A stretch of DNA of 24,621 nt from a virus, in the IMG/VR virus record IMGVR_UViG_3300035703_000400, positions 1 through 24,621 of that record; one strand, given 5' to 3'. Position numbers and translations under genes: made by a program. The notes under the pieces were generated by a model. That model saw only the letters and a program-made list of their open reading frames with translations, did not search any database and had not been told where the DNA came from. The first letter of the stretch is position 1; each line of letters begins with the position of its first letter. This document shows positions 2,985-24,527 of the stretch, piece by piece.

Positions 2985-3000
2985 TGGTATCATTTGATAC
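2985..3000. repeat. Short inverted repeat over the scaffold stop codon
   Basis: GGTATCA and TGATACC form a perfect 7-base inverted repeat around two bases. It covers the stop codon of the scaffold gene and lies 24 bases before the capsid start. It has no U-tract, so it is not a terminator. A weak effect on scaffold/capsid translation balance is possible; chance is also possible. Confidence 0.35.
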
Positions 3001-4372
3001 CGGCTAATCTCAACCAACGATCTTTATTTTGATCAACTGGTTGTTCTGCTTGTTTGTGAGGTAAACGGAATGAACTCTTTTTACTAATCGCTTCATTCAG
3101 TGATTTTGGTGAACGTTCTTCTTTTGCATGACCACCCACTGAATTGATTAGTGTTTCATATATTGTTTTTGCTTCACTAACAGAATCAGCCTTGGAAACA
3201 GCTTCGACAATTTGTGTTTTTTGTCGCTCATTCAAGGAGGCGCTTTTCAAGATCTGATTTTCATAAAACAGTCTGGCATTCAGTAGATTTACTTCTTCAA
3301 GTTTCTTGAATGCAACAGACATTTGTTCTATGGTGGAAGAGAATGATTTATTCTCTTCCAAGAGTTTGTTTATTTTTGCATCTTTGCTCTCAACTTCTTT
3401 TAGGAGAACTTGCGATGCTTTTAGTAGTTCGGTTGTTTTTGATTCTTTTATTTGTTTTTTATCTGCCCTCAGAGCAGCAAAGTCAGCACCAGTTATTTCA
3501 TCTGTTGGAGGAGCAGCACTGGCTATTTTTTGTTGTTTTGCAGAAAGTTTCTTTTCTTTTGTTGCTGCAAATGGACCTGCAGGTTCATCACTGGAGCCTG
3601 GTGTAAAGGTTTCTTCTTCGCTCTTTTTTACAAGTGGCATACTTGGATCATCAGTCATTTCATAGCGATCCATATAATTGCTTATTTCTTCTGGTGAAAG
3701 TTTATCAACAAACTCTTTGCCAAATGCTACTTTTAGCGCATCCTTGAACTTCTCAAAAACTGGCTGTTCTTGTTGCTGATCTTTGTAAAAAGAATACTCT
3801 TCACTTCCTGGAATATCTATTTCGTTTAGTGCTTCATCTAGGTCTACTTCAGCTTCTTCTTCAAGAGTATCTTCTTCAAGTTCAATGCTTTCAAGTTCTA
3901 AACTTTCTGCCAAACCAGTTCCACCCATTGCTGGTGGAGTTTGTTCTAATCCCATAGAACCTGATTCTTCTTCTTTGTCGCCTATTTGTAACTGATCGGC
4001 AAGATCAGCAAGATTTATTTCTAATGAAACTTCTTCATCATCATCAGGACAGGGACAAAGTTTTTCTCCATCTGTTGCCGCAAGAGGAATATCACCAGCA
4101 GTTCCAGCAACATAACCTTTATTTGATTCATCTGGTGGAGCGCCACCAAAGTCAACAGTTGGCATGTCACTTTGACCACCAGCAAGAGCATCAGTTGGAG
4201 ATGGAGTATCGGCACTCATTTCATCTTCGTCTTGTTCCAGTAGTTTTTCTACTGCTTCTTTTACCTGTGGAGCAAACTTTTCTAATAGTGCTGCTTGTGC
4301 GCTTTTATACGCTGAGTCTCGTAGTGCTTGTGCATCTACTATTGCTTGTTCTAATAGCTTTGAACTACTCAT
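2990..4372 (-). CDS. gp22: Prohead core scaffold protein (gp22-like)
   Basis: The assembly scaffold that fills the prohead before DNA entry. I place the start at the ATG at 4370-4372 (protein 'MSSSKLLEQA...', 460 residues), because an AGGAG site precedes it; a longer frame reaches 4426 but would begin inside leader sequence. Residues 40-200 are strongly acidic and low in complexity. Residues 305-375 are helical coiled-coil. The segment 'LNARLFYENQILKSASLNER' followed by 'QKTQIVEAVSKA' (364-395) and the ending 'DRWLRLAGIK' resemble the conserved C-terminus of marine T4-like gp22 proteins. It is longer than T4 gp22 (about 270 residues), the extra part being the acidic half. It lies immediately upstream of the capsid gene, as expected, and is probably degraded by the protease at maturation. 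Confidence 0.85.
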   Translation of the reverse strand: MSSSKLLEQAIVDAQALRDSAYKSAQAALLEKFAPQVKEAVEKLLEQDEDEMSADTPSPTDALAGGQSDMPTVDFGGAPPDESNKGYVAGTAGDIPLAATDGEKLCPCPDDDEEVSLEINLADLADQLQIGDKEEESGSMGLEQTPPAMGGTGLAESLELESIELEEDTLEEEAEVDLDEALNEIDIPGSEEYSFYKDQQQEQPVFEKFKDALKVAFGKEFVDKLSPEEISNYMDRYEMTDDPSMPLVKKSEEETFTPGSSDEPAGPFAATKEKKLSAKQQKIASAAPPTDEITGADFAALRADKKQIKESKTTELLKASQVLLKEVESKDAKINKLLEENKSFSSTIEQMSVAFKKLEEVNLLNARLFYENQILKSASLNERQKTQIVEAVSKADSVSEAKTIYETLINSVGGHAKEERSPKSLNEAISKKSSFRLPHKQAEQPVDQNKDRWLRLAGIK

Positions 4373-4448: not shown

Positions 4449-5000
4449 CTATAGTTTATTTATAAAACACTTTATTAAATTACTTTCTCCGTCAGTATTT
4501 TCAAGTGCTTGAGCTATTACTTTACCAAATAAATCTCGTTTTGTTCCGAATATCGTTCGTGTTTTTGCTGCACGACCATGACCTGGTTTATCGCTTGTAA
4601 CGATCCAATCGCCTTCATTTACTTTTCCAGTAACAAGAACATGTTCAGCACCCAATATTATTGGCTGTTCTTTGCCGTACATTGTTGCACCAACAACACG
4701 ATGATCTTCTGCTTTGTAACAAGGTATTGCTTTGCCATTTTCCCAAACAACAACAGTTCCAGTTGGGTATTCTGCGAGTTCTTGTGTTGTTAAACCAGTT
4801 TCAAATACCGCACCAACGGTTGTTTGTTGGGCATATATATCGTTCCATCTGTTTTGTGGAGAACCAATAGTCCTTATTGCATCTCCTTGCGGAAGTAAAG
4901 AACCTGTTATTTGAATAGAGCCGCTGAAACTTACAGTTCCATCGTTTAATATCTTGTGAACATGTGTTGAGCCACTTACTACACTTATGCCTTTAGTCAT
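4449..5000 (-). CDS. Fibre- or decoration-like protein with conserved N-terminal module
   Basis: A 183-residue protein. Residues 3-35 ('KGISVVSGSTHVHKILNDGT...') match the start of the large repeat-fibre protein encoded just upstream ('KGFAVISGSSTVVAKIMENG'), so the two probably share an attachment module. Residues 40-60 contain 'IGSPQNRWNDIYAQ', the common phage-fibre form of a triple-stranded beta segment. The rest is beta-rich with many 'G-x-V' turns and ends 'LFGKVIAQALE...IKCFINKL', resembling the C-terminal beta domains of some phage fibres and bacterial adhesins. No enzyme motif is seen. The ribosome binding site is weak. A virion surface role is inferred from the composition and neighbours. 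Confidence 0.6.
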   Translation of the reverse strand: MTKGISVVSGSTHVHKILNDGTVSFSGSIQITGSLLPQGDAIRTIGSPQNRWNDIYAQQTTVGAVFETGLTTQELAEYPTGTVVVWENGKAIPCYKAEDHRVVGATMYGKEQPIILGAEHVLVTGKVNEGDWIVTSDKPGHGRAAKTRTIFGTKRDLFGKVIAQALENTDGESNLIKCFINKL

Positions 5001-5122: not shown

Positions 5123-8104
5123 TCAGACTGCAAAGAATGAACTTGCGAACCATTCGCCACCTTCACAGAAGTACCATTTCTGGCCTTGTGGGAAGGCTGC
5201 AACAGCATCATCAGCGGCATCAAGATAGAACATGTGGCCGTTGTGTGCTGATTGATCACCACTGGTGTAAGCTGCTGGGATTGTTTCAGCAGTAAACTTA
5301 GGTGCTTGGAACTTACCGTTTACTGTTACTTGATCTGCAGAGCTATTACCGAGTGTTGCATTACCATTTACTGTTAGGTTGCCAGCGATGGTTACATCAT
5401 CTGGTAGACCGATTGTAAAGGTGTTTGCAGCACCGAGTGCAAATGAACCATTTACTGTAACTTCATTGGCTGTGCCATTGATTACGAGTGAAGTTAGTTC
5501 AACTGTATCAAGGCGTGAATCAAGGGATGCATCTCCGCTTTCACGGGCTGATGCTTCACTGGATAGAGCACTTGATAGACTTGTATCGGCACTTGTGCGA
5601 GCAGAAGATTCTGTTGATAGTGCGGTAGCAAGACTGGTGTCTGCTGCTGCACGAGCACTTTCTTCTGCTGATACACGAGTATCAATACTTGCATCTGCAC
5701 TTGCGCGTGCTGATTCTTCATTTGATAGACGGCTTGCGAGGCTGCCATCGGCTGAAGCGCGAGCACTTTCTTCTGCAGAAACTCTTGCATCAACACTTGC
5801 ATCTGCGCTTGTGCGACTTGATGCTTCGGTTGAAAGAGCACTTGCAAGACTTGCGTCTGCACTTTCACGGGCTGATGCTTCACCTGATACAACTGCTTCA
5901 ATACTTGCAACATTGCTTGCAATGGTACTTGTTACGGTTGTAGCAAAGTTTGGATCATCACCAAGTGCTGCAGCAAGTTCATTGAGAGTGTCAAGTAGTT
6001 CTGGAGCACTATCAACAAGAGCGGCAACTGCTGCATCAGTGTAGCTGTTTGCAGCGGCTTCAACTGATGCATCGCCTGAAACTCTTGAAGAAGCTTCAGT
6101 TGATAGAGCACTGTTGAGACTACTGTCAGCACTTGCACGAACACTTTCTTCTGCTGATACACGAGCTTCAAGACTTGCGTCTGCGCTTGCACGGATACTT
6201 GCTTCTGAAGAAACAGCATTTGCACGATCAACTATTTCTGTTGATAGTGCACTGTTTAGACTTGCGTCTGCGCTTGCGCGAACAGATGCTTCGCCTGAAA
6301 GAGCACTTTCAAGACTTGTATCTGCTGCTGCACGGGCACTTTCTTCGGTGCTCATGCGAGTGTCAACTGAAGCGAAGTCTGTTGAAATGTCTATAGTTAT
6401 AGCATTTTCAAGACTTGCTATTGCACTTTCTCTTGCTGATGTTTCAACACTGACTTTGCCGTCAAGACTTGCTTCTGCAGATGTTGCGCGTGAAGCTTCA
6501 CTGCTGATCTGACTTGCAAGACTTGCATCACCGCTTACACGGCTTGAAGCTTCAGAAGAAACACTTGTTGATAGCGCAGTTTGAACTGAACCAATCTTGG
6601 TGTCAAGTGAACCTTCCGCTGCAGTAGCGCGTGATTCTTCGGTTGATAGTCTGGAAGTTAGACTTGCGTCGCCACTTACACGACTTGATGCTTCAGTTGA
6701 TAGAGCGCCAGCAAGACTTGCATCACCGCTTACGCGACTTGATGCTTCGCTGGAAATATCACTACTTAGTGAAGCAACACTGCTGATGATTTGACCAGCT
6801 TGTGTTGTATCAAGACTTGCTACATATGCAACAACTTCAGCAAACTGATCAAGATCAGCTGTTGAACCACTAAGGATAGCGTCTATTCTTGCTTTTTCTG
6901 CACTGATTTGACTTGCAAGACTATCATCCGCAGCAACACGACTTGAAGCTTCTGTTGAAACTGCAGTTGAGAATGCCGCTGCTACGCTTGCATCACCAGC
7001 AACACGACTTGATGTTTCGGTACTGACTTTAGCATCAAGTGAAGCTTCTGCGGAAGCAGCACGGGATGCTTCAGCGGAAATGCTTGTTGATAGTTTTGAA
7101 TCAAGACTTGCATCAGCACTTGCAAACGCACTTGTTAGTGAACCTTCGGCTGAAACAGCACGAGATGCTTCACTACTGATTTGTGCTTCAAGGCTTGCTT
7201 CGGCAGATTCAGCACGGGCTTCTTCTGCACTAACAAGAGCAGCAACACTATCATCGCCAGCAACGCGATTTGAAGCTTCAGTTGAAACTGCTGCTTCACG
7301 AAGTGATACTTCACTTGAAAGAGCACTTGCAAGACTATCATCGCCAGCAACACGACTTGAGGCTTCAGTTGAAACCGCAGTTGAGAATGCTGCTGCTACA
7401 CTTACATCACCTGCTGCACGAGCACTTTCTTCGCTTGAAAGACGAACAGTTAGACTGCTGTCTGCTGCAGCGCGGACACTTTCTTCTGCTGCAGCGCGAA
7501 CATCAATACTTGCAACGCTGGCTGTTAGTTCATTGACTTTTGAAGTCAGGTCGCCAATACCAGAAACAAGTTGTGATGCTGCTTCGCCATCGCCATCAAG
7601 GAACTCTTGAATGTCTTTGATGGTGCTTAGGGCACCGGATAGTGTGCCGTCGCCACCGACGAGCGTATCTATTCTGTTGTCAACTGCAGTTTCTAAACTT
7701 GATACTGCACTTATGCGCGCTGAAACTTCAGAACTTAGTGCGCTGTTTAGACTGCTATCTCCTGCTGCGCGGGCACTTTCTTCCGCTGATACGCGAGCAT
7801 CAATGGATTCAAAATCTGCCGCTGAACCAGAAGCAAGTGAATTTAGAACTGCTTGAACATCACTACCATCGCTGGTTGTAACATTTGCTGCAGCAACTTT
7901 ACCTAATGATGCACTACCTGCTGCATCAATTAGAACAACACGACCTGCGCCACTTGCACTTGATGATAGATCAAGTACGAGTGAGCCGCTGACTTTCATG
8001 TCGACTGCTTTATCTTGACCGAATACTACTGTGCCGTTTTCCATGATTTTAGCAACAACTGTGCTAGAACCTGAAATAACTGCAAAACCTTTTTGTTTTG
8101 ACAT
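5123..8104 (-). CDS. Long repeat-fibre protein with tandem 18-residue repeats
   Basis: A 993-residue virion fibre candidate. I choose the ATG at 8102-8104 (protein 'MSKQKGFAVISGSS...') because an AGGAG lies upstream and the N-terminus then aligns with the neighbouring 183-residue protein. Residues 1-104 are a beta-rich head module. Residues 105-864 are about 28-30 near-complete 18-residue repeats of the form [VLI]S.EASxR.S.DASL.x[AR]. They are interrupted by three longer inserts: 'GGDGTLSGALSTIKDIQEF', 'ILSGSTADLDQFAEVVAYV', and 'LLDTLNELAAALGDDPNFA'. The last two types recur in aquatic phage fibres. Residues 865-993 are beta-rich and end in an aromatic cap. The repeats are Ser/Ala/Glu-rich and helical, so a long parallel trimeric rod is likely. 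Head fibre, neck whisker or tail fibre cannot be told apart. Confidence 0.75.
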   Translation of the reverse strand: MSKQKGFAVISGSSTVVAKIMENGTVVFGQDKAVDMKVSGSLVLDLSSSASGAGRVVLIDAAGSASLGKVAAANVTTSDGSDVQAVLNSLASGSAADFESIDARVSAEESARAAGDSSLNSALSSEVSARISAVSSLETAVDNRIDTLVGGDGTLSGALSTIKDIQEFLDGDGEAASQLVSGIGDLTSKVNELTASVASIDVRAAAEESVRAAADSSLTVRLSSEESARAAGDVSVAAAFSTAVSTEASSRVAGDDSLASALSSEVSLREAAVSTEASNRVAGDDSVAALVSAEEARAESAEASLEAQISSEASRAVSAEGSLTSAFASADASLDSKLSTSISAEASRAASAEASLDAKVSTETSSRVAGDASVAAAFSTAVSTEASSRVAADDSLASQISAEKARIDAILSGSTADLDQFAEVVAYVASLDTTQAGQIISSVASLSSDISSEASSRVSGDASLAGALSTEASSRVSGDASLTSRLSTEESRATAAEGSLDTKIGSVQTALSTSVSSEASSRVSGDASLASQISSEASRATSAEASLDGKVSVETSARESAIASLENAITIDISTDFASVDTRMSTEESARAAADTSLESALSGEASVRASADASLNSALSTEIVDRANAVSSEASIRASADASLEARVSAEESVRASADSSLNSALSTEASSRVSGDASVEAAANSYTDAAVAALVDSAPELLDTLNELAAALGDDPNFATTVTSTIASNVASIEAVVSGEASARESADASLASALSTEASSRTSADASVDARVSAEESARASADGSLASRLSNEESARASADASIDTRVSAEESARAAADTSLATALSTESSARTSADTSLSSALSSEASARESGDASLDSRLDTVELTSLVINGTANEVTVNGSFALGAANTFTIGLPDDVTIAGNLTVNGNATLGNSSADQVTVNGKFQAPKFTAETIPAAYTSGDQSAHNGHMFYLDAADDAVAAFPQGQKWYFCEGGEWFASSFFAV
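5513..7792 (-). repeat. Array of 54-base coding repeats (18-residue units)
   Basis: These bases encode the repeated rod of the fibre protein. Units run [VLI]S.EASxR.SxDASL.x[AR], often alternating a V-type and an L-type start. Synonymous and conservative changes differ between units, so the array is old rather than a recent duplication. Typical units are 'LSTEASSRVSGDASLTSR' and 'VSAEESARASADGSLASR'. Confidence 0.85.
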
Positions 8105-8154: not shown

Positions 8155-8160
8155 ATGTAA

Positions 8161-8252: not shown

Positions 8253-9659
8253 TCAAGAAACAGATATTATTTCAAGCCAAGCAAACCACTTAAAAGTTGT
8301 AGAAGCAGCACCGGTAACTGTAAAAAGTATGTTTGTGCCGCTGGTTGTCACGCCTATTGTTGGAGTTATATTTTCTTCATTGGCAGAGGTGAGACTCATA
8401 ACGGCAGTAACAACTCCAGATACATTTTTAGCACGAACATTCCCTATATAACTATTTACTGCTCCAGTGCTTTGTCTGGCAACACACTGATACATTATGC
8501 TATATGCGGTGTTTGCTATAGTTGGATAGGTATATATTATTGCAGCCACTGCATCCACAGTGATAACATCTCCACTTACGCTTCTGCGCTCTCTTCCTCC
8601 ATGAACAACAGCAACACTATTCAATGCCGGACTGTAAATGCCGGTGTCGGCGTCACCGTGAAAACTATATGTTGGCGTGTTCAATCCGCCAGCATCCCAT
8701 CTTATCCAAGGCCCACCGTTTATTAATGATGTTCCTGCTGTTGCACCTATGTTGAATTTGTTTGATGCATTATGAGAAAAAGCCAAAACACCATCTGTAT
8801 TATTCCAAGACATACCAGAACCAGCAGCATTTTGAAAACTATATGCTGGATTTGCGGTATTGCCATTTGGATTAAGAGTGCGAACAGTATTCGTAATGTT
8901 TGTGTAATCTATAGTAGATAAATCACCAACAGTAATGTCGCGAATTTTATATTGTGATTTATAGCCTACAGTGTTTGTTATATTGTCTGCAGCTGTGACA
9001 TTAATGTCTGCACCGGTATCTGCAGAAACGATTTCTATAGAGCCAGTGGTTATTTCAACTTTTTGATTAGATGTGGCAAGTTTTGATGTTGTAAGTCCTT
9101 CTATGGTAGTATTGGCTCCCTGAATAATAGTGTTATCGCTGGCGCTCATTGTCAGATCATCGCCAGCAGTTATAATAATGTCCGAGGTTGCTCCCGTAGC
9201 AGTAAATGACATGCTGCCGGATCTTGCAAAAGCTCCAGCATCGCTTATAGTTATGCCGCTGCCATCTTGTATTAATTTTCCTGTTGTGCCGTCAAATCGC
9301 ACTATAGCATTATCGTTACTAGATATTGCACCAGTAACATTACCACCAGTGGATGATATAATTCCATTATTTATTGTTATGTTCGTTCCGGCCAAAAACT
9401 TACTTCTTACATCATTTGCAAAGTTTGATATATTTGAAGCAGTAAGACCATATAATTGAGAGCCGTCACCTTTGAAAGAAGAACTAATGATAACTTGTTC
9501 TGCGCTTATATCTTCATTAAAAGTTGTGTGTGAATTAACAATAAGAGAATCAGTAAATAGATCGCCTATTACGGTGTCTCCAGCAATAGACAAGTTGCCA
9601 GGAATGTTTATCCCGGCAGAGCTTGATATTTCGCTGTTTTTTATTATTATATTGGCCAT
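8253..9659 (-). CDS. Tail-fibre-like structural protein
   Basis: A 468-residue beta-rich, Ser/Thr/Asn/Gly-rich protein. The N-terminal part has the phage fibre pattern 'GNLSIAGDTVIGDLFTDSLI' (21-40). The middle contains 'DNAIVRFDGTTGKLIQDGS', and two related segments near 267-345: 'NPAYSFQNAAGSGMSWNNTD', and 'TPTYSFHGDADTGIYSPALN'. These are common in fibre and appendage proteins of aquatic phages. The last ~100 residues may form a cap domain ('FKWFAWLEIISVS' at the end). No enzymatic or chaperone domain is recognisable. The start codon is only 4 bases after a large hairpin and lacks a good free Shine-Dalgarno site. It is the first of three fibre-like genes between bS21 and the scaffold gene. 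Confidence 0.7.
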   Translation of the reverse strand: MANIIIKNSEISSSAGINIPGNLSIAGDTVIGDLFTDSLIVNSHTTFNEDISAEQVIISSSFKGDGSQLYGLTASNISNFANDVRSKFLAGTNITINNGIISSTGGNVTGAISSNDNAIVRFDGTTGKLIQDGSGITISDAGAFARSGSMSFTATGATSDIIITAGDDLTMSASDNTIIQGANTTIEGLTTSKLATSNQKVEITTGSIEIVSADTGADINVTAADNITNTVGYKSQYKIRDITVGDLSTIDYTNITNTVRTLNPNGNTANPAYSFQNAAGSGMSWNNTDGVLAFSHNASNKFNIGATAGTSLINGGPWIRWDAGGLNTPTYSFHGDADTGIYSPALNSVAVVHGGRERRSVSGDVITVDAVAAIIYTYPTIANTAYSIMYQCVARQSTGAVNSYIGNVRAKNVSGVVTAVMSLTSANEENITPTIGVTTSGTNILFTVTGAASTTFKWFAWLEIISVS

Positions 9660-9699: not shown

Positions 9700-9903
9700 T
9701 CAATCTTCTTTTCCTGCAGCAGCCTTTTCTTTTTCTATGGCTCTTGCTTTTTGTCTGCGTTTTGTATGTGCTTGCATAGAAGGTTTCACAAAATATTTAC
9801 GATCATATACCTGTTCTACTATTCTCATTTTCTTTGTTTTTTTGAGAAACTTTTTTATCATTTTTTCTACATTGCCATCAACTTCATCTAAACTTACTTT
9901 CAT
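9700..9903 (-). CDS. rpsU: Ribosomal protein bS21, phage-encoded
   Basis: A 67-residue basic protein matching bacterial small-subunit protein bS21 (71 residues in E. coli). The match covers the whole family core: 'VEKMIKKFLKKTKKMRIVEQ' (12-31) corresponds to the '[20 protein letters not shown]' region, and 'VYDRKYFVKPSMQAHTKRRQ' (32-51) to the 'REFYEKPTTERKRAK' region. I choose the ATG at 9901-9903 because GAGG lies six bases upstream; a longer frame back to 9951 would need a TTG start and would overlap the previous gene. bS21 helps the 30S subunit contact the mRNA Shine-Dalgarno helix. Phage copies are known in environmental genomes and probably replace the host protein to favour phage mRNA. 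Its place in the late operon is notable. Confidence 0.9.
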   Translation of the reverse strand: MKVSLDEVDGNVEKMIKKFLKKTKKMRIVEQVYDRKYFVKPSMQAHTKRRQKARAIEKEKAAAGKED

Positions 9904-9922
9904 GTTTTCCTCGTATTCTTTA

Positions 9923-10375
9923 TCAAGTAATATTGAACTTTTTTCCACCAAACAGTTTGCTTATATCAACGCCTGGATCATTTGGTGATATTCCACCAAG
10001 CGGGTTTCCTACACTTTCTTGAACTGGGGAAGGTGCTGGAGTGGTTCCCTTGAACACGTCAACTCCACCAACTTTCATTGATAGATTTTTGCTAACTTGC
10101 TCACTTTGTTTGCGAAAGTCAGCAGCTATTTCTTGTCGTTCTCTCTTTATTTGTTCCATCAACTCATTATTAACTTGTGGTTTTGTTTTTGCTGGCTGTG
10201 AAGCGTTTGCTATTTGTGTTTTAGAAGCTTCTGTTAGAACAGGCAAAGCGCCTTTCATTACTTCTTTTATAACACTTGATAATAAACCACTTTCAAGAAG
10301 TATTTCTTCAACACTTTCGCGGACACACTCTTGAACTATTGGTTTTATTATTTCTTTGAGTTCACTTTTTTTCAT
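9923..10375 (-). CDS. Unknown small protein with 'KSELKEIIKP' N-terminus
   Basis: A 150-residue protein starting at an ATGA overlap with the prohead protease stop. Residues 1-30 ('MKKSELKEIIKPIVQECVRE', then 'SVEEILLESG') form an amphipathic acidic-ended helix, similar in style to the N-termini of three other proteins in this window. Residues 60-100 are a charged helix; the C-terminus (110-150) is Gly/Pro-rich and ends 'ISKLFGGKKFNIT'. No enzyme motif is seen. Its place between protease and scaffold genes suggests a core or internal head protein, which is inference. Confidence 0.65.
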   Translation of the reverse strand: MKKSELKEIIKPIVQECVRESVEEILLESGLLSSVIKEVMKGALPVLTEASKTQIANASQPAKTKPQVNNELMEQIKRERQEIAADFRKQSEQVSKNLSMKVGGVDVFKGTTPAPSPVQESVGNPLGGISPNDPGVDISKLFGGKKFNIT

Positions 10376-10977
10376 TTTCCACCTATAATATCATTTAGTA
10401 AGCGGTTTATTCTATCTGATTTTGTGAAAATGTTAGGTGCTTTTTTACTTTCTGAAAGACTCATAAATGCACCACCTGTTGATGGTTCGCTCACAAAGTC
10501 AAAACAAATAAGCTGAAAATCATCTTCTACTATAGTTAGACCACCACGCTCTTTTACACTACCAAGACCGCGACTTGAAATACCAAGTTTTACACCACTT
10601 TCAACAAGTGATTTTAATATTTGACCTGATGGTGTTGATAATACTTTTACCTTACCCATTACATCTTTGCCATTCCACCAAATGTCTGTAACAATATGTG
10701 AGGCATTTTTTAGATTTATAACACTTTCATCCGGATGGTCAAGTTCGCCAAGAGCACGGTTTTCGGCAATAAGTTTTTTATAGTTTTCTACTTCTCTACG
10801 AAGAACATTTTCTGGATAAACACGACCATTGCCATTTTTGGCATCTGCTCTTTGAATGACACCTGAAAGCATCATACCGCCACTTTTCACAAAGCTTTTT
10901 TCTGCTTCTGTTAGAAGATCTTGGCATACACCGCCTTCACAGAGTTCAAAATATTCACGAAGTAAAAACTGACTCAT
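10372..10977 (-). CDS. gp21: Prohead protease (T4 gp21-like)
   Basis: The serine protease that matures the prohead by cutting capsid, scaffold and core proteins, typically after (I/L)-x-E. The 201-residue length is close to T4 gp21. Visible family motifs are 'NGNGRVYPENVLRREV' (48-63), 'ALGELDHPDE' with the catalytic His at 81, 'DIWWNGKDVMGKVKVL' (98-113), and 'GISSRGLGSV' with the catalytic Ser at 134 or 135. Asp160 in 'LICFDFVSEP' is a possible third active-site residue. The start is fixed by an ATGA overlap with the preceding gene. The C-terminal tail (175-201) may be lost by self-processing. Confidence 0.95.
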   Translation of the reverse strand: MSQFLLREYFELCEGGVCQDLLTEAEKSFVKSGGMMLSGVIQRADAKNGNGRVYPENVLRREVENYKKLIAENRALGELDHPDESVINLKNASHIVTDIWWNGKDVMGKVKVLSTPSGQILKSLVESGVKLGISSRGLGSVKERGGLTIVEDDFQLICFDFVSEPSTGGAFMSLSESKKAPNIFTKSDRINRLLNDIIGGK

Positions 10978-13123: not shown

Positions 13124-13698
13124 AAACCATAAGCATAACGACGAACTTGATGTATTGGAACTGAACCTTTTTCTTGTGCCGCAGGAACTTTGCCAAGTTC
13201 AGTGCTTTCTTTATCGTTTGGCTCTGTAACACTATCGGCATAAGCATCTGCAACTGCTTGTTGATAAACAACTGATGGTTTTTCACTGTCTATCCATTTT
13301 GAAACAAGCATCAACATTAGATCGTCTATTGGCATTTCTTGCGCTGGTTTTATTATTTTTGCTTCTAAAGAACCATATACATTTCCAGCGGCAATGCTAT
13401 CAAAAACTAATGTGCCTTTTTTAGTTAGATATTTCATAAGGCGATCTTGTGTTTGGTAAATGTGATCGTCAAAGTTTTCTTTTGAGAAAGTTATAATACG
13501 CATTTTATCAGGCATTATAACAATATCAATATCTGGATGATCTGATACAATAATATTACCATCAAGTGTTCGCCTTGCTTTTACTTTTATTGTAAAAAGT
13601 TGTTTTTTCTTTTCTGGCTCTTGTGCTTGAATATTATCATCAAAAGCCTGATCTGGCTGCGGATCTGTGCTTGTTATTTTTACTTTTAGATCAGCCAT
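13120..13698 (-). CDS. Conserved-type unknown protein of the head operon
   Basis: A 192-residue protein. After an acidic, Pro/Gln-rich first 30 residues comes a beta-rich core: 'FTIKVKARRTLDGNIIVSDH' (35-54) and 'PDIDIVIMPDKMRIITFSKE' (55-74). A helical part (80-150) and a charged tail ending 'IHQVRRYAYGL' follow. The layout resembles hypothetical proteins placed between portal and protease in marine T4-like phages, from memory. It overlaps the genes on both sides by 8 and 4 bases. No function can be assigned from the sequence. Confidence 0.6.
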   Translation of the reverse strand: MADLKVKITSTDPQPDQAFDDNIQAQEPEKKKQLFTIKVKARRTLDGNIIVSDHPDIDIVIMPDKMRIITFSKENFDDHIYQTQDRLMKYLTKKGTLVFDSIAAGNVYGSLEAKIIKPAQEMPIDDLMLMLVSKWIDSEKPSVVYQQAVADAYADSVTEPNDKESTELGKVPAAQEKGSVPIHQVRRYAYGL

Positions 13699-14557
13699 TA
13701 TTTGTTTCTTCCTTGCTTTCTATTTCTTTTATAAGGCTTTGTATTTTCATGACCTCTTCTATTAGTGAATTGTCAATGTCTTTTTGTTTATAATTTTCTA
13801 CTCTTTCCAAAACCATTACTGTTTTATCTTTTAGAAAGCGATCTTCTGCTATTTGTTTTTCTTCAAGGCTTGTTTTTAGTGAGTTTTTTATTCTTTGTAT
13901 TTCTTCATTTAGATATAGTTTGAATTCTGTTCCACCATCAGCAAAACTCATTACATACTTTGTTAGAAGTTCTTTTTGTTCCGAAAGAAGAGAGTTGCTG
14001 TATTGTTCATTGAACTTTTTCACAAATAGATTATAAGTTAGGGAATCAAGTGTGACAAGCTTATCTTTTTCAGCACTTTCTGGTGTTGATGTCATCTTGC
14101 TAACTATTTGTGACTCTAATAATACTTTTTCTTTTACTGGAACGCTGTTGTTGAATATTTGAGATATTGTAGCAAGGTTTTTGTAATCGGATACAAAAGT
14201 ATTAAATATTGAACCATTTGATAGTTTGTTTAGAATATTTACAAGCTTTGTTTGTTCGTTGAATATTTGTTTTTTATCTAAAAGTTCATATTGAAATTTT
14301 GCTTCATTCAGTATTTTTTGTGCTATATCGCTAGAAACTTCATACGACTCATGAACGGCGCGATATAAATCAAGTTCTTTTTTCAGAACCTGACCGCGAG
14401 AGAAAAAAGACTTACAAACTTTTACAAGAAACTTTTTTTGTTCTTCATTTTTTTGCAATACTGCATTTGTTATTTCACGAACAATAACTTCATATAAAAA
14501 AGCAGTGTTTCGCTTTTTATTGTGTTTAGTCTTCACTATTTTCTTTGTTTGTTGCAT
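13691..14557 (-). CDS. Unknown helical protein downstream of the portal gene
   Basis: A 288-residue, almost wholly helical protein rich in Lys, Glu and Leu. It opens with a basic stretch 'KKIVKTKHNKKRNTAFLYEV' (5-24) and ends in an acidic coiled-coil. Several Leu/Ile heptads are visible between 60 and 280. A GGAGAAG site precedes the ATG, which lies inside the end of the portal gene (32-base overlap). In T4 this place holds the prohead core genes 67 and 68, so a core or scaffold helper role is possible. That is inference from position. Confidence 0.6.
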   Translation of the reverse strand: MQQTKKIVKTKHNKKRNTAFLYEVIVREITNAVLQKNEEQKKFLVKVCKSFFSRGQVLKKELDLYRAVHESYEVSSDIAQKILNEAKFQYELLDKKQIFNEQTKLVNILNKLSNGSIFNTFVSDYKNLATISQIFNNSVPVKEKVLLESQIVSKMTSTPESAEKDKLVTLDSLTYNLFVKKFNEQYSNSLLSEQKELLTKYVMSFADGGTEFKLYLNEEIQRIKNSLKTSLEEKQIAEDRFLKDKTVMVLERVENYKQKDIDNSLIEEVMKIQSLIKEIESKEETNNG

Positions 14558-16628
14558 TTTTCTTCTCCAAAGAACTTATAAGTTGCTTCAAGTTGTCGTT
14601 GTTAGATAATATTTTCTGCTCAACAATATTATTGTCTTGCTTTTTATCTGCTTCACTCAACATCTCTTCACTATAACTATTTTCATATTGTTCGTAAATA
14701 CCATTACCAAGACCAAATAGTTCTTGTGCGCCAGAACCCATAACATTTCTCATTGAACCACCGCCAAGTTCTTTACTGAACTTTGACTGATAGCTTCTTG
14801 TTCTTGCTCCTGTTGGTCTACTATCTCCACCGCGATATTTTACAGGCATATACATTTTGCCTCTTGATGCAGGAGTAGTTGTTAGTTTGTCGTCTCTTTT
14901 TCCTGGTGCTGCCAATAATGGACCTGCTTCTTCTCCACCGGCTGGTGTTTCTGCTGGTGTTTCTGTTGGTGTTGCAGCACCTGCTTCTGGTTCAGAAGTA
15001 AGTGTTCCTAAATCTATACCGGGGCCACCTTCTGCTCCACCGGCACCAGTATCTCCACCAAGACCACCAGTATCCATTCCACCGCCAAATGCATCAGCAT
15101 CACCGGCTGCAGCTTCTTGCTCTGAACCTGCTTTTTCAACAGCGGCTTTGAACTTGAAGTCAAAGAACATTTCGCGTTGATTCCGCAAAAATTCTTCATC
15201 TGAAAGACCAAATATTTTTTTAGCAACCCAACGCTTGCTGAAATATCCTTCTGTTGCAGCACTTGCAACTTCAAATTTTGTTTTCCAAGTTTCCAGTTCT
15301 TGTAGCTCTGCTATTTTGCTTGGGTTATTTAGTCGTAGTTTGAACTTTATAAGATCTTCATTTCTGTAACCAAGAACAAATAGGTGAATAACCCCTATCT
15401 TTTCAAGTTCACTTACGACAGATCTTTGAAGGCGTTGAATGGTTCTGGCAAAACGGATATCTTTTTGTGCCAAGGTTGTTTTATCTTCTTCACCACCTTC
15501 ACCACGAGCAAGATAACTTTGCGGTATCTTTATAGCAGAAAATAATTTATCTCGTAGATATTTTACATCTTCTATGTCGCCAGTGTATTGGCCACCAGCA
15601 AGACTTTCTATTTTTGTTGATTGTTGACCACGAACTGGAATAAAATAATCTTCCTCTATTGACAGTGGGTTGTAGCGAAGGTCAACGCGACCGGTTTTTT
15701 CATCAACAACTTGGTTACGTTTTAGGGCTGTCATTGCTTTTTGCATGAATTGCTCAACATCATTTGGAGCGACGTTTCCAACATCAACATAGAATACACG
15801 ACGCTCTGCCGAACGAACAATACGATAAGCCATCATAGCATCTTCAAGCAGAGTCAGTTGTCGCCATATTCTACGGGCAGGCTCTAACACGCTTGTTCCA
15901 TATGGAGCATATTTATCGTTTCCAAGAATACGGAAATGACCCATTTGCCAGTTTTCAAAAGTCATGCCGCCACTATTCCATTGAAACTGAACATAGTTTG
16001 GATTTTTTTCATCTTCACCTTCTATACGCTCAACTTCATATGGAGGAATGCCAATAGCATTTCTAATACCATCGCGTTCATCAATATCCAGATAAAGAAA
16101 AAAGTCGCCAAACTTACACATAGTTCGTGACCAACCAAAAAGATTGAACTCTATGTTCAGTATGTCATAATAAAGACTGTGAAGAATGTTTTTTATTTCT
16201 TCATTTGGGCAGTCTATGTTTAGAACCTTTTCCAGTGAGTTACTTGTTGTCATTTCGTCGGCATAAATATCAAGTGCCGATGCTATTTCAGGTGTGTATT
16301 CCATTTGTTCAAAATCTACATATCTTTCAGCACGGTTTTGGTTGGCCATGCTTTGAGAATGAACATAATCAAATGGATTATAGGAAGACTTTTTGAACTG
16401 TTGTCCTTGTGCTGACTGAAAACGGTATTTATCTAAACGACGGCGACGTTCGCTTTTATAGTTTTGTTGGCGACGATTGACAATAGGACCAGAAAATAGT
16501 TTTGTAAGTCTTTTGAAAAGACCATTGTCCGGATTATATGGACTCTTATCTTGATTTACTCTTCCTCTTTTTGAGGGAGTTATGTTGCGAAAGTCGCTTC
16601 TATTTATTGGTTTGCTATTGTCAGCCAT
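14526..16628 (-). CDS. gp20: Portal vertex protein (T4 gp20-like)
   Basis: Forms the ring at one vertex through which DNA enters, and initiates prohead assembly. The T4-like portal signature runs from about 85 to 495, including 'YTPEIASALDIYADEMTT' (111-128), 'YGTSVLEPARRIWRQLTLLE' (243-262), and 'RVFYVDVGNVAP' (277-288). It also has 'KLFSAIKIPQSYLARGEGGE' (361-380) and 'IRFARTIQRLQRSV' (391-404). At 700 residues it is much longer than T4 gp20 (about 524). The extra part is a Gly/Ala/Glu/Pro-rich linker (500-580) and a 120-residue tail. It starts four bases after the terminase stop with an AAGGA site. Confidence 0.95.
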   Translation of the reverse strand: MADNSKPINRSDFRNITPSKRGRVNQDKSPYNPDNGLFKRLTKLFSGPIVNRRQQNYKSERRRRLDKYRFQSAQGQQFKKSSYNPFDYVHSQSMANQNRAERYVDFEQMEYTPEIASALDIYADEMTTSNSLEKVLNIDCPNEEIKNILHSLYYDILNIEFNLFGWSRTMCKFGDFFLYLDIDERDGIRNAIGIPPYEVERIEGEDEKNPNYVQFQWNSGGMTFENWQMGHFRILGNDKYAPYGTSVLEPARRIWRQLTLLEDAMMAYRIVRSAERRVFYVDVGNVAPNDVEQFMQKAMTALKRNQVVDEKTGRVDLRYNPLSIEEDYFIPVRGQQSTKIESLAGGQYTGDIEDVKYLRDKLFSAIKIPQSYLARGEGGEEDKTTLAQKDIRFARTIQRLQRSVVSELEKIGVIHLFVLGYRNEDLIKFKLRLNNPSKIAELQELETWKTKFEVASAATEGYFSKRWVAKKIFGLSDEEFLRNQREMFFDFKFKAAVEKAGSEQEAAAGDADAFGGGMDTGGLGGDTGAGGAEGGPGIDLGTLTSEPEAGAATPTETPAETPAGGEEAGPLLAAPGKRDDKLTTTPASRGKMYMPVKYRGGDSRPTGARTRSYQSKFSKELGGGSMRNVMGSGAQELFGLGNGIYEQYENSYSEEMLSEADKKQDNNIVEQKILSNNDNLKQLISSLEKKNATNKENSED

Positions 16629-16632
16629 TTAT

Positions 16633-18231
16633 TTATCCTTTATATAGCCAGTCATACATTTTGTAGAACTCTTTTAGTTCTCTTTGATTTACTCTTTTTT
16701 CGTCTAACGAATAGTTGCTATTATAGCCTATCTGGCCAGGTATTTTAGTCTGAACGCGAGTATTTGCCATAGTTATGGCATTAAACATTGCTTTTGTGTA
16801 TTCAACATCTCGTTGTGAGGTTGTAAGTGCTGTATCTCGTACCCAACAAGCAATAGCGAGCGACATTGTGAGATCATCATTTCTATTTTTCATTGCTTCT
16901 GGGCGGCCATTGTTCCATATAAATGTAGATAGTTCTTCAACCATTCTATTAGAATATATTTTTATCATCTTATTTCGGATAAACTCTTCAAGTTTTGCCA
17001 CTATAAGGGGTCTTGTTTTTTGGGTTGTTGTAAAACCTGGAACACTGTTTGTCATGCTTTCTGCTTGAACTTGCTCTATGAATTCATGTGTTGATTTTAT
17101 TGAAAAATAAATATTTGGATATTTTCTTTCTATAAGTTTATCAAGAACATTGTAGCCAATATTGTTATTTTCTACAACAAGAAGAGCATTGTTATATTCT
17201 TTTCCTGTTTGGAAAAGCATGTCGGCATAAATATCTGGTGCTATTTTGCCTTGATATTCTGCTACTTGTTCCATTGTTTCAAGTTTTATAACATGGAAAG
17301 CAGAAAAGTCCTTTCCATCTCCGCGAGCAACATCGGCAACAAGAAGATAAGAAAAGTTTTGTCTTGCCTCTTCCCATATCCAGTAGTTTCTATCAAAACC
17401 TGTGCGATATTTTGGCTCTAAAACAGATTCTCTTATTTCTTGTAAATCTTGTGAATTTATAACGCCTTCGCCGGATGCGTTGAAAGAGCATTCATATTCT
17501 TGCGCTATATCTCGTCTATTCATATTACGAGTAGCGGCCTCAAACCAGTCACGATCTCGTTCTGGATGGGCATCCCAATTTAGCTTTACAGCGTGAAAGT
17601 CATTAGAGTTATTTTCTGCATTTATATAAGTTTCATGGAACCAGTTACCAACACCATTTGGAGTGCTAATAGCTATACAACGACCACCTGCGGATAGTGT
17701 TGGGAATATACTTTTCCATAAGTCTTCCATGCCCTCAACGAATGCTGCTTCGTCTATAACAAGAAGACTTAGAGCTTCTGAACGGCCAGCACTTTCACTT
17801 GTTGAAGATGCCTTGATCCACGAGCCATTGTTTAGTTCAAAACTGTTTCGGTTGTCTATTGATATGTCAGCGATATTCATCCAAGCTGGTAGGCTTTTTA
17901 TCATCTTTTTTACTTTTTTTACAAGATTGGCAGCAACATCAAGCTTTGTGGCAACAACAAGAACAGTTTTTTGTCTGCGGAAAAGAAGCATCCAAGCAAT
18001 ATATCCCGCAACAGCGGTTGATAAACCTAACTGACGGGCTTTTAGAACTATATTGAAGCGATAGTCTTCAAATGCTTTTATTGTATCTTGCTGATAGCCA
18101 TATAAACTAAATGGTATCAAGCCTTTTTCTGGGTGAGCGATCTTACAATAGTTTGTAATAAAGTATGTGGGATCACGCCCACATTTCTTTACTTCTTCCC
18201 TTACTTGATCTTTTGTGAGAACATAACTCAT
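16633..18231 (-). CDS. gp17: Terminase large subunit (T4 gp17-like)
   Basis: The motor that cuts and pumps DNA into the prohead. The N-terminal ATPase shows an adenine-binding Gln region ('YGYQQDTIKAF', 44-54), a Walker A-like 'ARQLGLST' (65-72), a Walker B 'LLVIDEAAF' (156-164), and a coupling motif 'ISTPNG' (188-193). The C-terminal nuclease shows Asp300 in 'VADVARGDGKDFS', Glu354 in 'LLVVENNNIG', and Asp452/453 in 'NRNDDLTMSLAIA'. At 532 residues it is a little shorter than T4 gp17 (610). It starts three bases after the preceding stop. The portal gene follows directly. Confidence 0.95.
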   Translation of the reverse strand: MSYVLTKDQVREEVKKCGRDPTYFITNYCKIAHPEKGLIPFSLYGYQQDTIKAFEDYRFNIVLKARQLGLSTAVAGYIAWMLLFRRQKTVLVVATKLDVAANLVKKVKKMIKSLPAWMNIADISIDNRNSFELNNGSWIKASSTSESAGRSEALSLLVIDEAAFVEGMEDLWKSIFPTLSAGGRCIAISTPNGVGNWFHETYINAENNSNDFHAVKLNWDAHPERDRDWFEAATRNMNRRDIAQEYECSFNASGEGVINSQDLQEIRESVLEPKYRTGFDRNYWIWEEARQNFSYLLVADVARGDGKDFSAFHVIKLETMEQVAEYQGKIAPDIYADMLFQTGKEYNNALLVVENNNIGYNVLDKLIERKYPNIYFSIKSTHEFIEQVQAESMTNSVPGFTTTQKTRPLIVAKLEEFIRNKMIKIYSNRMVEELSTFIWNNGRPEAMKNRNDDLTMSLAIACWVRDTALTTSQRDVEYTKAMFNAITMANTRVQTKIPGQIGYNSNYSLDEKRVNQRELKEFYKMYDWLYKG

Positions 18232-18234
18232 ATA

Positions 18235-18687
18235 TCATTTTTTTGGTTTCGTGCCATTGACTGGATCTTTTGTTTCTGGGTCAAGGAGTTTATCTTCCAT
18301 GGTTCCGGCTTTCTTTTTAGCAACTATTCTACCGGCTGCAGCAACTGCTTCTGGGTCATCAGCCCAACTTGAAGCTTGTTTTACTGCTTTTTTGAACTCT
18401 GCTGGTGTTACTTTGCCAGCACCACCGGCACCACCACGAATCGCCTTCATAGTGGACGCCGAGGCTTTATATTCTTGACCTTTGTGTTTTACTTTTTCAA
18501 CTTCTTCAAGACTTCCGGATTCTTTATCGGCATCTATTTCATCTTCAATAGCCTTTTCGCCGGCTTCTTTTGAAAGTTCTTCAATAGCCTCTTCGTCAAG
18601 TTCAAGAACATTTTCTTCAACATATTTTTCATGAAGCTCAACTTCTTCACGAATGATTTGCAGCAGTCTTGCTTTGGTTATTTTCAT
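18235..18687 (-). CDS. Unknown protein with 'IIREE' N-terminus, upstream of the terminase
   Basis: I choose the ATG at 18685-18687, which overlaps the preceding stop as ATGA and has AGGTGG upstream; the protein is 150 residues. It starts 'MKITKARLLQIIREEVELHE', the clearest example of the shared N-terminal segment. An acidic helix follows (20-60), then 'KASASTMKAIRGGAGGAGKV' and a Lys-rich C-terminal half ('FKKAVKQASSWADDPEAVAA', about 97-116). T4 carries the small terminase gene in this place, but I see no small-terminase signature. A packaged or core protein is an alternative. Function unknown. Confidence 0.6.
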   Translation of the reverse strand: MKITKARLLQIIREEVELHEKYVEENVLELDEEAIEELSKEAGEKAIEDEIDADKESGSLEEVEKVKHKGQEYKASASTMKAIRGGAGGAGKVTPAEFKKAVKQASSWADDPEAVAAAGRIVAKKKAGTMEDKLLDPETKDPVNGTKPKK

Positions 18688-19214
18688 TTCTTTAGTCCAC
18701 CTAATGCTAGCCATTTTTGAAGTTGTTCGCTGCGTTCAACATCTTTTTGATCTTCAAGCTTTGGCATGTCAACATCTTTTATCTTGTAATGACATTGTGC
18801 TGTTACAAAAACACGGATTCTTGATGTTTCTTCAACAAGCATTTTTACTTCACCATATTTTTCAACATTTAGTTCTTTGCCTGATACTTTTTTGAATTCT
18901 TTTTTTAGATATTTTAGTGCTTCTGCTATATGCTCTTCAACTTGTTCACCAAGCTTTGGACTGTGTGCTTCTTCAAGTTTGAGTTCTGAATGATAAGATA
19001 TTATCAAACAAGGAAAAGAACCATCTTTTGCTGCGTGATGTGTTACCCGAGCACGAAAACCATCAAGGAGACGACATTCACAACTGGTAAATGCTGGGAC
19101 TTCTTCACGGCGCAGACCTGCTTTGATTGCCTTACCGTCTTTATCAGTAGCGCCATCATATGTTTGTGCCATTACTTGTGAAATACCGCTTATTACATCC
19201 ATTAGTTCAGCCAT
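18684..19214 (-). CDS. Unknown 176-residue protein
   Basis: A soluble-looking protein with an alpha/beta pattern. Visible stretches include 'GLRREEVPAFTSCECRLLDG' (33-52), 'RARVTHHAAKDGSFPCLIIS' (54-73), and 'SRIRVFVTAQCHYKIKD' (130-146). Four Cys and several His do not form an obvious metal site. A strong AAGGAG site precedes the ATG. It ends in an ATGA overlap with the next gene and shares the operon with the terminase. I do not recognise a family; neck or packaging roles fit the place but are not supported by a motif. Confidence 0.6.
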   Translation of the reverse strand: MAELMDVISGISQVMAQTYDGATDKDGKAIKAGLRREEVPAFTSCECRLLDGFRARVTHHAAKDGSFPCLIISYHSELKLEEAHSPKLGEQVEEHIAEALKYLKKEFKKVSGKELNVEKYGEVKMLVEETSRIRVFVTAQCHYKIKDVDMPKLEDQKDVERSEQLQKWLALGGLKK

Positions 19215-19814: not shown

Positions 19815-20239
19815 TTTTGAACCTGGTTTATCAATACGATTGTTCCCACTATGGCAGCAGTTGAAACTACTGTTCCAACAGCGAGTCCACCAAAAAAATA
19901 ATATGCGTTATCACCGCCGTCATCAATCCGATCCAAGAAAACCTTATCCTGTTCATTGCGTAACCTGTTTATTTCATCAAATTTTTTCTTTTCAAGATCA
20001 AGTTCGTTTTTTAGCAAACCCATATCAAGAATGCATTTGTTTTTTTCTTTTTCAACTGCGGCTTCGCTGTTTATTTTGCATATTTCTGCCGCTGCTTGTT
20101 TATCTGCCAATATTTTTGCGGCTTCTTCTTTTGTCAGAAAGATGCCATCTGCTGGGGATGGTTGTCCTTTCGCGACTGCTGTTTGTGCCAAGCAGTTGGC
20201 TGATAATAAAAATGATAATACTATACATAAACTTCTCAT
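19811..20239 (-). CDS. Exported coiled-coil protein with C-terminal membrane anchor (possible spanin partner)
   Basis: A 142-residue protein. Residues 1-18 ('MRSLCIVLSFLLSANCLA') are a signal peptide; Cys16 is not in a good lipobox, so cleavage by signal peptidase I after 'CLA' is more likely. Residues 35-108 are a charged coiled-coil with two Cys. Residues 113-138 ('YYFFGGLAVGTVVSTAAIVG...') form a transmembrane helix. A periplasmic coiled-coil anchored at its C-terminus fits a lysis-associated or envelope-spanning role. Its start overlaps the stop of the preceding membrane protein (ATGA), so the two are probably made together. Confidence 0.6.
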   Translation of the reverse strand: MRSLCIVLSFLLSANCLAQTAVAKGQPSPADGIFLTKEEAAKILADKQAAAEICKINSEAAVEKEKNKCILDMGLLKNELDLEKKKFDEINRLRNEQDKVFLDRIDDGGDNAYYFFGGLAVGTVVSTAAIVGTIVLINQVQK

Positions 20240-20604
20240 AGTTTGAATTCTTCTTTCATCTTATCGGCAAGCTCTTGTGTTGTTTTGTCTTTTAGAACAT
20301 CTATTGTTTTTTGTTTATCTTCTAAAACTTTTTTTATTTGTTGTTCTTTTTTTAGCTCTATCTGCTTGGCCTTTTTTTCTGCCCTATCAATAATAGTTTT
20401 GTCTTTTTCAGTTTTTTTATCATTTAGTGTTTCAAGTTTGTCAAACTGTTTTTTATAGCCATCAGCAAGTTTTTTTATCATATTAGTAAGTCCGGCAACT
20501 TTTGCATTTTCAATAAAACTTACCACTATAACAAGTCCGGTTAGTCCAAGAACAACAAACATATACCAATATTTTTTTATTGTTTTGAATATTTTATCTA
20601 TCAT
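20236..20604 (-). CDS. Inner-membrane coiled-coil protein (i-spanin-like candidate)
   Basis: A 122-residue protein with one N-terminal transmembrane helix (about 12-31, 'YWYMFVVLGLTGLVIVVSF'), followed by a long Lys/Glu/Asp-rich coiled-coil to the end. This layout is that of an inner-membrane spanin, which disrupts the outer membrane at lysis, but many phage membrane proteins look alike. Its start codon lies 11 bases inside the 46-residue membrane peptide gene; AGGGA precedes it. Neighbouring holin-like and exported proteins support a lysis role. Confidence 0.6.
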   Translation of the reverse strand: MIDKIFKTIKKYWYMFVVLGLTGLVIVVSFIENAKVAGLTNMIKKLADGYKKQFDKLETLNDKKTEKDKTIIDRAEKKAKQIELKKEQQIKKVLEDKQKTIDVLKDKTTQELADKMKEEFKL

Positions 20605-24482: not shown

Positions 24483-24490
24483 AGTATTCA

Positions 24491-24527
24491 CCTCGTATCT
24501 GTTATATTGTAAGTAGTAGATACGAAG
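24491..24527 (-). promoter_or_regulatory. Hairpin sequestering the ribosome binding site of the HNH gene
   Basis: On the minus strand CTTCGTATCT (24518-24527) pairs with AGATACGAGG (24491-24500) over ten bases with one wobble, around a 17-base loop. The GAGG at its end is the Shine-Dalgarno site of the endonuclease. The loop contains TACAATATAA, a -10-like sequence, so a transcript starting there would lack the first arm and leave the site free. Confidence 0.65.

Follow-up and report, generated by a model that had tools for sequence, protein, structure and literature searches.

What kind of stalk is built from a single 18-residue sequence repeated over hundreds of residues, with its charged and aliphatic residues on the same side of the helix? 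The question is raised by a virus record of 24,621 bases (IMG/VR record IMGVR_UViG_3300035703_000400), called the window here and taken at its full length, whose main genes lie on the minus strand and whose rod fibre gene (5123..8104, minus strand) encodes 993 residues. An initial annotation had read positions 5513-7792 as a rod of 18-residue repeats, and we find 29 units at those exact coordinates. The stalk is likely to be a parallel, probably trimeric 18/5 alpha-helical coiled coil (18 residues in five turns) of a virion fibre of a far-T4-like phage.

An array of 29 units held by selection

The 29 units lie within residues 105-864, with the first base of unit 1 at 7792 and the last base of unit 29 at 5513, and no unit contains an insertion or deletion. 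They were called with a gap-free profile, trained on the window and its relatives, at a score of at least 8 bits; the same profile applied to 50 shuffled proteins found 0.04 units on average and at most 1. The identity autocorrelation of the protein has its top peak at lag 18 (0.275, z 16.2) and the next at lag 36 (0.203, z 9.1). The unit consensus is [VLI]-S-[TSA]-E-[AE]-S-[AS]-R-[AV]-[SA]-[AG]-D-A-S-L-x-[SA]-[AR], and across the 29 units, which are related by descent and are not independent samples, E4 and S14 are kept in 29, S2 and S6 in 28, R8 in 24, L15 in 23 and D12 in 22.

The array is not uniform, being interrupted by spacers of 4, 11 or 15 residues at seven places and by three inserts of 63, 50 and 54 residues. 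The repeat profile delimits four segments, all on the minus strand like the gene itself: A (residues 105-140, 7685..7792) with 2 units, B (residues 204-399, 6908..7495) with 9 units and spacers of 4, 11, 15 and 4, C (residues 450-684, 6053..6757) with 11 units and spacers of 11, 15 and 11, and D (residues 739-864, 5513..5890) with 7 contiguous units. Two finer regularities proposed in the initial annotation do not survive counting. Of 18 contiguous pairs, 8 switch between a V and an L start, no more alternation than expected by chance (null 8.3, p 0.66), and a 36-residue super-unit is rejected, as next-but-one units share 9.8 of 18 residues compared with 9.3 for neighbours and 9.4 for all pairs.

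Tandem Repeats Finder detects no array in the DNA of the rod. Adjacent units agree at 29.4 of 54 bases (9.3 of 18 residues). Where residues are identical, their codons match at a frequency of 0.50 versus 0.45 expected from gene-wide usage, and the conserved serines are encoded from both serine codon families. Because there is no DNA array, codon sharing is near expectation and both serine codon families are used, we conclude that the protein pattern is held by selection and not by recent duplication, the repeat being old or selected at the protein level. Recent tandem duplication of the whole array is ruled out by Tandem Repeats Finder and the codon data, while single-unit insertions and deletions do occur. 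Searched against libraries, the pure repeat hit no significant family (best Pfam E 0.041, best PHROG E 0.0052), and SF-assemblin (PF06705) scored 15.8 bits (E 0.0095), short of its gathering score of 30.6. Two long open reading frames overlap the rod, one at 5379-6044 on the plus strand (221 aa) and one at 5494-5922 on the minus strand in another frame (142 aa); both are probably products of the repeat's codon pattern and not genes.

Related rods carry different numbers of units

A scan with residues 1-108 of the rod fibre returned 10 contigs and a capsid scan added L010 and L018, giving a family of the window plus 12, of which three members (L085, L087 and L090) run off their contig. Rods are present in 12 family proteins (the window and 11 others), L018 having the end domains but no units, and the full-length rods comprise 12-31 units over spans of 277-850 residues. 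The smallest step in length is seen between the window and its relatives L083 and L084 (92-93% identical): one extra unit in the window, an exact in-frame difference of 54 bases. The genomic site is conserved as well. Counting by hand and taking overlapping loci of one contig once, we found gp21 upstream of the rod gene in 11 of 12 contigs, and all 9 contigs extending past the rod gene have a gene of the type found at 4449-5000 in the window, gp22 and gp23 after it, in this order.

Beyond the family, a scan with the rod only gave 8 loci, three of them from phages with unrelated ends (L100, L103 and L104), and a query with L103 led to two further rods, L108 and L109. The L100 rod matched 34 records of annotated phages at low identity, including lambda J-like, Vibrio, Streptococcus and crAss-like proteins. 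Seven named-phage proteins were checked, the KP34 one coming from a separate search; five hold 2-5 units and two none, and the crAss-like protein, read with translation table 11 and having only a 332-residue open frame, has a 0-unit count that is unreliable. Scanning genome contigs for the rod produced 494 pattern matches, but no relative was among them.

Other arrangements of the unit were also seen. In L190, a J-like protein of Escherichia phage Cyrano, five 18-residue units stand almost exactly 66 residues apart, so here each larger repeat contains a single unit. The rods of L090 and L012 contain a 22-residue unit (18+4, STEISNRESAVSGLSTDVSxAL) in near-exact tandem.

A helical period near the free helix, kept by the spacers

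The initial annotation took 18 residues as five turns of 3.6 residues each and expected nearly straight, non-heptad helices, and the period bears this out. The aliphatic residues of the rod give a Fourier peak at 3.61 residues per turn (power 35.6, with 99% of shuffles below 7.7), and the segment peaks are 3.635 in B, 3.615 in C and 3.595 in D, segment A being too short for an estimate. In an excerpt of Hartmann et al. 2016 (PMC4786415), 18/5 is listed among coiled-coil periodicities and the undistorted helix is put at ~3.63 residues per turn; as the rod's period is near this value, its helices should be near-straight. Power at the heptad period of 3.5 is 3.3, within shuffle noise, and neither of the contrary outcomes set beforehand, a missing lag-18 peak or a heptad-only pattern, appeared in the autocorrelation or Fourier analysis.

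An ordinary heptad coiled coil, in which the 18-residue unit would reflect nothing but duplication history, could appeal to 18 being 7+11, to the 11-residue spacers being 18 minus 7, and to coiled-coil stalks being common in fibres. We reject a heptad rod on its Fourier power of 3.3 against 35.6; moreover, the synonymous sites are near randomised, so the 18-residue form is held by selection, and we regard this explanation as very improbable.

In the window, units are joined directly (0 residues) or via spacers of 4, 11 or 15. Short spacers in the 12 rod-bearing family proteins (n=71) measure 4 (27 cases), 7 (1), 8 (1), 11 (23), 15 (14) and 18 (5) residues, and those in five other rods (n=33) measure 4 (7), 8 (1), 11 (20), 15 (1), 18 (1), 22 (1), 26 (1) and 29 (1). 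With distinct lengths treated as random draws from 1-30, such agreement has a p value of 0.00075 in the family and was reached in 0 of 20,000 draws in the five other rods. The spacer lengths lie near whole helix turns and keep the helical phase. Over 41 helical runs in 17 proteins the mean is 3.618 residues per turn, compared with 3.63 in the undistorted helix, a figure resting on whole turns assigned to spacers and therefore bookkeeping, not a free fit. Among 35 distinct 11-residue spacers, 13 equal the unit's first 11 residues (the unit minus 7), and the others fit best with the gap elsewhere. An exception to the spacer rule comes from the seven named-phage proteins, with 0-5 units each, in which spacers of 14 and 27 occur besides 0; the Ser/Thr coat described below is also weaker in them (42%).

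Charged and aliphatic residues share one face

Taking position 8 as 0 degrees, we define the inner face as positions within 60 degrees (1, 4, 5, 8, 11, 12, 15) and the outer face as those at 120 degrees or more (2, 3, 6, 10, 13, 14, 17). The inner positions (203 residues) are 30% aliphatic, 44% charged and 1% Ser/Thr, whereas at the outer positions (203 residues) Ser/Thr make up 72% and Ala/Gly 24%, with charged and aliphatic residues at 1% each, and composition is similar in 196 family units and 80 units of other rods. A canonical coiled coil has a mostly hydrophobic stripe with its charges outside; here the stripe is present, but 44% of that face is charged. We claim that the rod works like a coiled coil, not that it is a canonical one.

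The inverted charge distribution is also seen in the angle between the charged and aliphatic directions, after dropping stretches with too few residues or an unclear aliphatic direction. In 36-residue stretches of the rod the median angle is 13 degrees and 41 of 41 are under 60, and in 28-residue stretches over residues 105-864, inserts included, 72 of 89 are under 60 degrees and 12 over 120. Control helical proteins are mostly the reverse, with charges opposite the aliphatics: the stretches over 120 degrees number 13 of 13 in an SbcC-like protein, 15 of 23 in gp22 (1 under 60), 3 of 3 in 13691-14557, 5 of 5 in 20236-20604, 6 of 11 in 18684-19214 (3 under 60) and 1 of 1 in GCN4-pII. Relatives are less clean, the fraction under 60 degrees being 0.71-0.95 in the seven family members measured, 0.87-1.00 in L100, L103 and L104, 0.58 in L108 and 0.50 in L109.

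The same faces could be packed inside out, the Ser/Ala/Thr face forming a tight helix-helix interface, presumably like that of the Alacoil, with the charged and aliphatic stripe exposed. This would suit a back face that is 96% S/T/A/G and S2, S6 and S14 that are nearly invariant in 29 units despite the use of both serine codon families. However, almost all units keep V/L/I1 and L15, F, L, I or V extends this series through many spacers, and the spacers hold the phase of the aliphatic stripe, all of which makes inside-out packing unlikely in our judgement.

An arginine-acid rule within the unit

The place of the arginine goes with the acid at position 12. At a unit threshold of 14, R7 is found with E12 52 times and with D12 2 times, and R8 with D12 216 times and with E12 once. 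The 213 distinct family units divide into 152 R8/D12, 42 R7/E12, 2 R7/D12, 0 R8/E12, 16 R8 with V or I and 1 other, and the 80 distinct units of five other rods, in the same order of classes, into 64, 10, 0, 1, 3 and 2. Thinning to 136 units sharing at most 13 of 18 residues leaves 93 R8/D12, 24 R7/E12, 2 R7/D12, 1 R8/E12 and 16 others. The profile scores positions independently, so the link is not built in, although inherited unit subtypes do contribute to it. In a straight-bundle model the C-beta distance of R8-D12 is 6.4 Å within a chain and ~7-9.5 Å between chains, and that of R7-E12 is 9.7 Å within and ~9-11.5 Å between, suggesting that the longer gap takes the longer acid; the script built left-handed (mirror-image) helices, which leaves the distances unaffected.

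The ladder invites another explanation, single stable alpha-helices in which E4-R8-D12 salt bridges run within the chain and only the end domains oligomerise. Both E4-R8 and R8-D12 are i,i+4 pairs, and 6.4 Å within the chain is below the interchain distance in every bundle tried. Single helices do not need an aliphatic stripe in strict phase, however, and R7-E12 pairs are spaced i,i+5, which suits a single helix poorly and is the classical g-e' spacing between chains; we give this explanation little credence. The Arg-acid rule, the shared face of charges and aliphatics, the Ser/Thr coat and the phase-keeping spacers had all escaped the initial annotation.

A proposed straight stalk extendable by single units

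As a parallel, probably trimeric 18/5 coiled coil, the rod would turn the stripe of V/L/I1, E4, A/E5, R8, A/G11, D12 and L15 towards the bundle axis, where paired aliphatic layers (L15 and the next V/L1) would alternate with salt-bridge layers of E4, R8 and D12, and its exterior would be a nearly charge-free Ser/Thr/Ala coat. Because its period is close to that of a free helix, the rod would be hardly supercoiled and could be lengthened or shortened by whole 54-bp units with its ends unturned. At 0.15 nm per residue, units and spacers (593 residues) would span ~90 nm, and the length would rise to at most 114 nm with the whole of 105-864 in extended helix. Of the end domains, the N-terminal one would anchor the fibre to the virion, and the C-terminal one would cap the rod or bind. 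More tentatively, such rods might form an octadecad class undescribed in the literature searched, defined by an axis stripe of two aliphatic layers alternating with an E4-R8-D12 network under the Arg-acid length rule, with a charge-free Ser/Thr coat, and straight, self-registering, non-sticky and 54-bp extendable.

Several observations weigh against the coiled-coil reading. Two aliphatics per 18 residues are little for a hydrophobic core, and S2, S6 and S14 on the back face are as conserved as the core, more than a mere coat needs. On the full hydropathy scale the whole rod shows a modest peak at 3.605 (9.4 vs 7.2) and single segments show none; the peak is nearly lost within segments because Arg, Glu and Asp share the aliphatic face, but so weak a signal is also expected if that face is unburied. 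Simple bundle geometry fails to separate interchain from intrachain salt bridges. Finally, confidence is low (predicted local distance difference test (pLDDT) 53, predicted template modelling score (pTM) 0.21) in a whole-protein AlphaFold2 (AF2) monomer model. In favour of the reading, this model is helical along the rod, with breaks at 150-153, 170-173, 283, 429-432 and 714-717; it supports helix and little else.

If the layout is right, phage rod length changes by single genetic units while end rotation is kept, and charges stabilise the inside of the rod, not the outside. It would also provide a stiff, modular, low-stick spacer ready to use and account for the failure of sequence searches with low-complexity masking to find such rods. 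The analysis separates the stalk from the domains in a common kind of unannotated environmental phage fibre.

End domains and inserts

The rod gene starts with an ATG at 8104, from which its relatives align, and an upstream TTG at 8155 is possible. The N-terminal domain (residues 1-104, 7793..8104), which has 10 relatives by scan and resembles the start of gene 4449-5000 (BLASTP E 4e-5), is probably the virion-attachment end. The C-terminal domain (residues 865-993, 5126..5512) ends in KWYFCEGGEWFASSFFAV, an ending common to a neck-like protein of relatives. The last ~45 residues (5126-5260; GHMFYL...KWYFCE-x-GxW) also close a ~264-residue protein downstream of gp23 in relatives, at loci L023, L024, L026, L032, L041, L047, L051, L052, L061 and L065, and this protein has a weak match to head closure Hc2 (phrog_460, E 0.002-0.012). 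By sequence, two virion proteins share this terminal module. A distant relative's gene upstream of gp22 (L032:2-1891, plus strand) has a similar C-terminal ending and near-exact repeats of another kind (GDADMNGALDVAGAT...), and its product is probably a beta-structured fibre.

Whether the rod belongs to a head fibre or neck whisker instead of a tail fibre is a separate question, compatible with the coiled coil either way. In relatives the gene has gp21 on one side and gp22-gp23 on the other, and the rod protein shares an ending with the neck-like protein downstream of gp23, both of which fit the head or neck; yet gene position is no proof of virion position, and most members of the insert 3 families carry tail fibre or tail protein annotations. 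We lean slightly against the head or neck.

The initial annotation spoke of three known fibre inserts, which it saw as possible hinges; the word 'known' holds for insert 3 and not for inserts 1 and 2, neither of which has a PHROG match at E 0.01. Insert 1 (residues 141-203, 7496..7684) contains two helix breaks in the low-confidence AF2 model. Insert 2 (residues 400-449, 6758..6907; RIDAILSGS..LDQFAEVV..), delimited by the repeat profile, recurs in other phage rods. Insert 3 (residues 685-738, 5891..6052; ALVDSAPxxLDTLNELAAALGDDPNFATTV) matches 30 PHROG families, including PHROG 454, 1197 and 2631, and by sequence the PDB chains 9d93_La and 6v8i_BN, and thus has the sequence of a phage fibre with the LDTLNELAAALGDDPNF insert. 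It is found in at least 526 viral stretches. The whole protein matches 549 annotated phage records, and among the matches listed 40 of 40 fall on insert 3 and none on the rod alone. In an AF2 model of insert 3 (51-row alignment, pLDDT 91.8), a first helix reaches residue 699, the chain breaks next to Pro701, a helix of 16 residues follows, and after a loop at 717-719 a further helix runs on into the next units; Foldseek found no match for this model in the PDB and one meaningless match in BFVD. By hhalign, a common origin is supported for two pairs only, insert 2 and the SN-D type found in other rods (probability 93) and insert 3 and the NGAP type (97). The remaining eight pairs, including the three among inserts 1, 2 and 3, are weak, reaching at most 49.

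Genome context

Four hallmark genes of a T4-like phage are present in the window, on the minus strand: terminase gp17 (16633-18231), portal gp20 (14526-16628) and prohead protease gp21 (10372-10977) by PHROG match, and major capsid gp23 (1267-2961) by Gp23 Pfam (E 1.7e-70) and PHROGs as well. The gp22-like gene (2990-4369, minus) has no PHROG match and is named from position only. Among annotated phages, the nearest capsid proteins share ~48-52% identity and belong to an uncultured phage, to Flavobacterium phages (immuto group) and to Microcystis phage Mel-JY01. Because of these closest capsids we consider the window a fragment of a far-T4-like phage, a label that draws in part on PMC4360716.

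The rod gene is the second of three fibre-like genes. Its neighbours, also on the minus strand, are a 468-aa gene at 8253..9659 (phrog_28766 tail fiber, E 9e-4), whose position is conserved in relatives, and a 183-aa gene at 4449..5000, whose N-terminal motif is related to that of the rod gene. Between gp21 and the fibre genes lies a small gene with a ribosomal protein S21 domain (9700-9951, minus; PF01165, E 1e-6), retained in relatives and annotated as RpsU at a similar place in Mel-JY01. A GIY-YIG homing-type endonuclease with NUMOD3 (617-1207, minus) stands between gp23 and a LamG-domain gene, the latter (3-524, minus) encoding a concanavalin A-like (Laminin_G_3) domain protein truncated by the window end. 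A cysteine-pair motif protein (23508-24491, minus) has a weak DUF7487 match and a C-terminus that we take to be HNH-like.

Relation to known systems

Phage fibres offer the nearest known neighbours by sequence. Insert 3 is held in common with phage tail fibres carrying an ALVDSAP..LDTLNELAAALGDDPNFATTV insert, namely chain 9d93_La ('Tail collar fibers, gp4'), which we take to be from phage Bxb1, and 80alpha FibU (6v8i_BN). For FibU, an excerpt of the structural report gives no density past residue 123 (PMC7048315). The pure 18-residue rod had no phmmer match among PDB chains up to E 10. A Klebsiella KP34-like tail fibre (chain 23sh_r, 'tail fiber gp9') contains a stretch that can be read as one unit, IDAEAATRKAADDALSMR, with E4, R8, D12 and L15 kept, but the match is weak (E 0.42), the unit is single and there is no array, and KP34 gp49 has 0 units by profile.

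Polar residues in the core of a trimeric coiled coil are reported for the stalks of trimeric autotransporter adhesins, which carry a YxD/RxD motif (PMC6555100, in excerpt). The rod is alike in its polar core residues but differs in spacing, R-x3-D instead of their R-x-D, and Pfam finds no YadA anchor in the rod gene. With 18/5 coiled coils, described in the excerpt cited above as heptads with delocalised stutters, the rod has in common 18 residues per five turns and a near-straight bundle, and its spacers of 4 and 11 correspond to stutters and hendecads. Unlike in them, the 18-residue register is here the repeated unit itself, 29 times over, its charges lie on the same face as the aliphatics, and it has a Ser/Thr coat. 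This repeat is not described in the open-licence full texts searched, nor is any long octadecad array whose aliphatic face is charged. Coiled coils of the 18/5 kind and helical phage stalks were already known, and what the rod adds to them is one face of charges and aliphatics with a Ser/Thr back, phase-keeping spacers, the Arg-acid rule and a number of units that varies among relatives.

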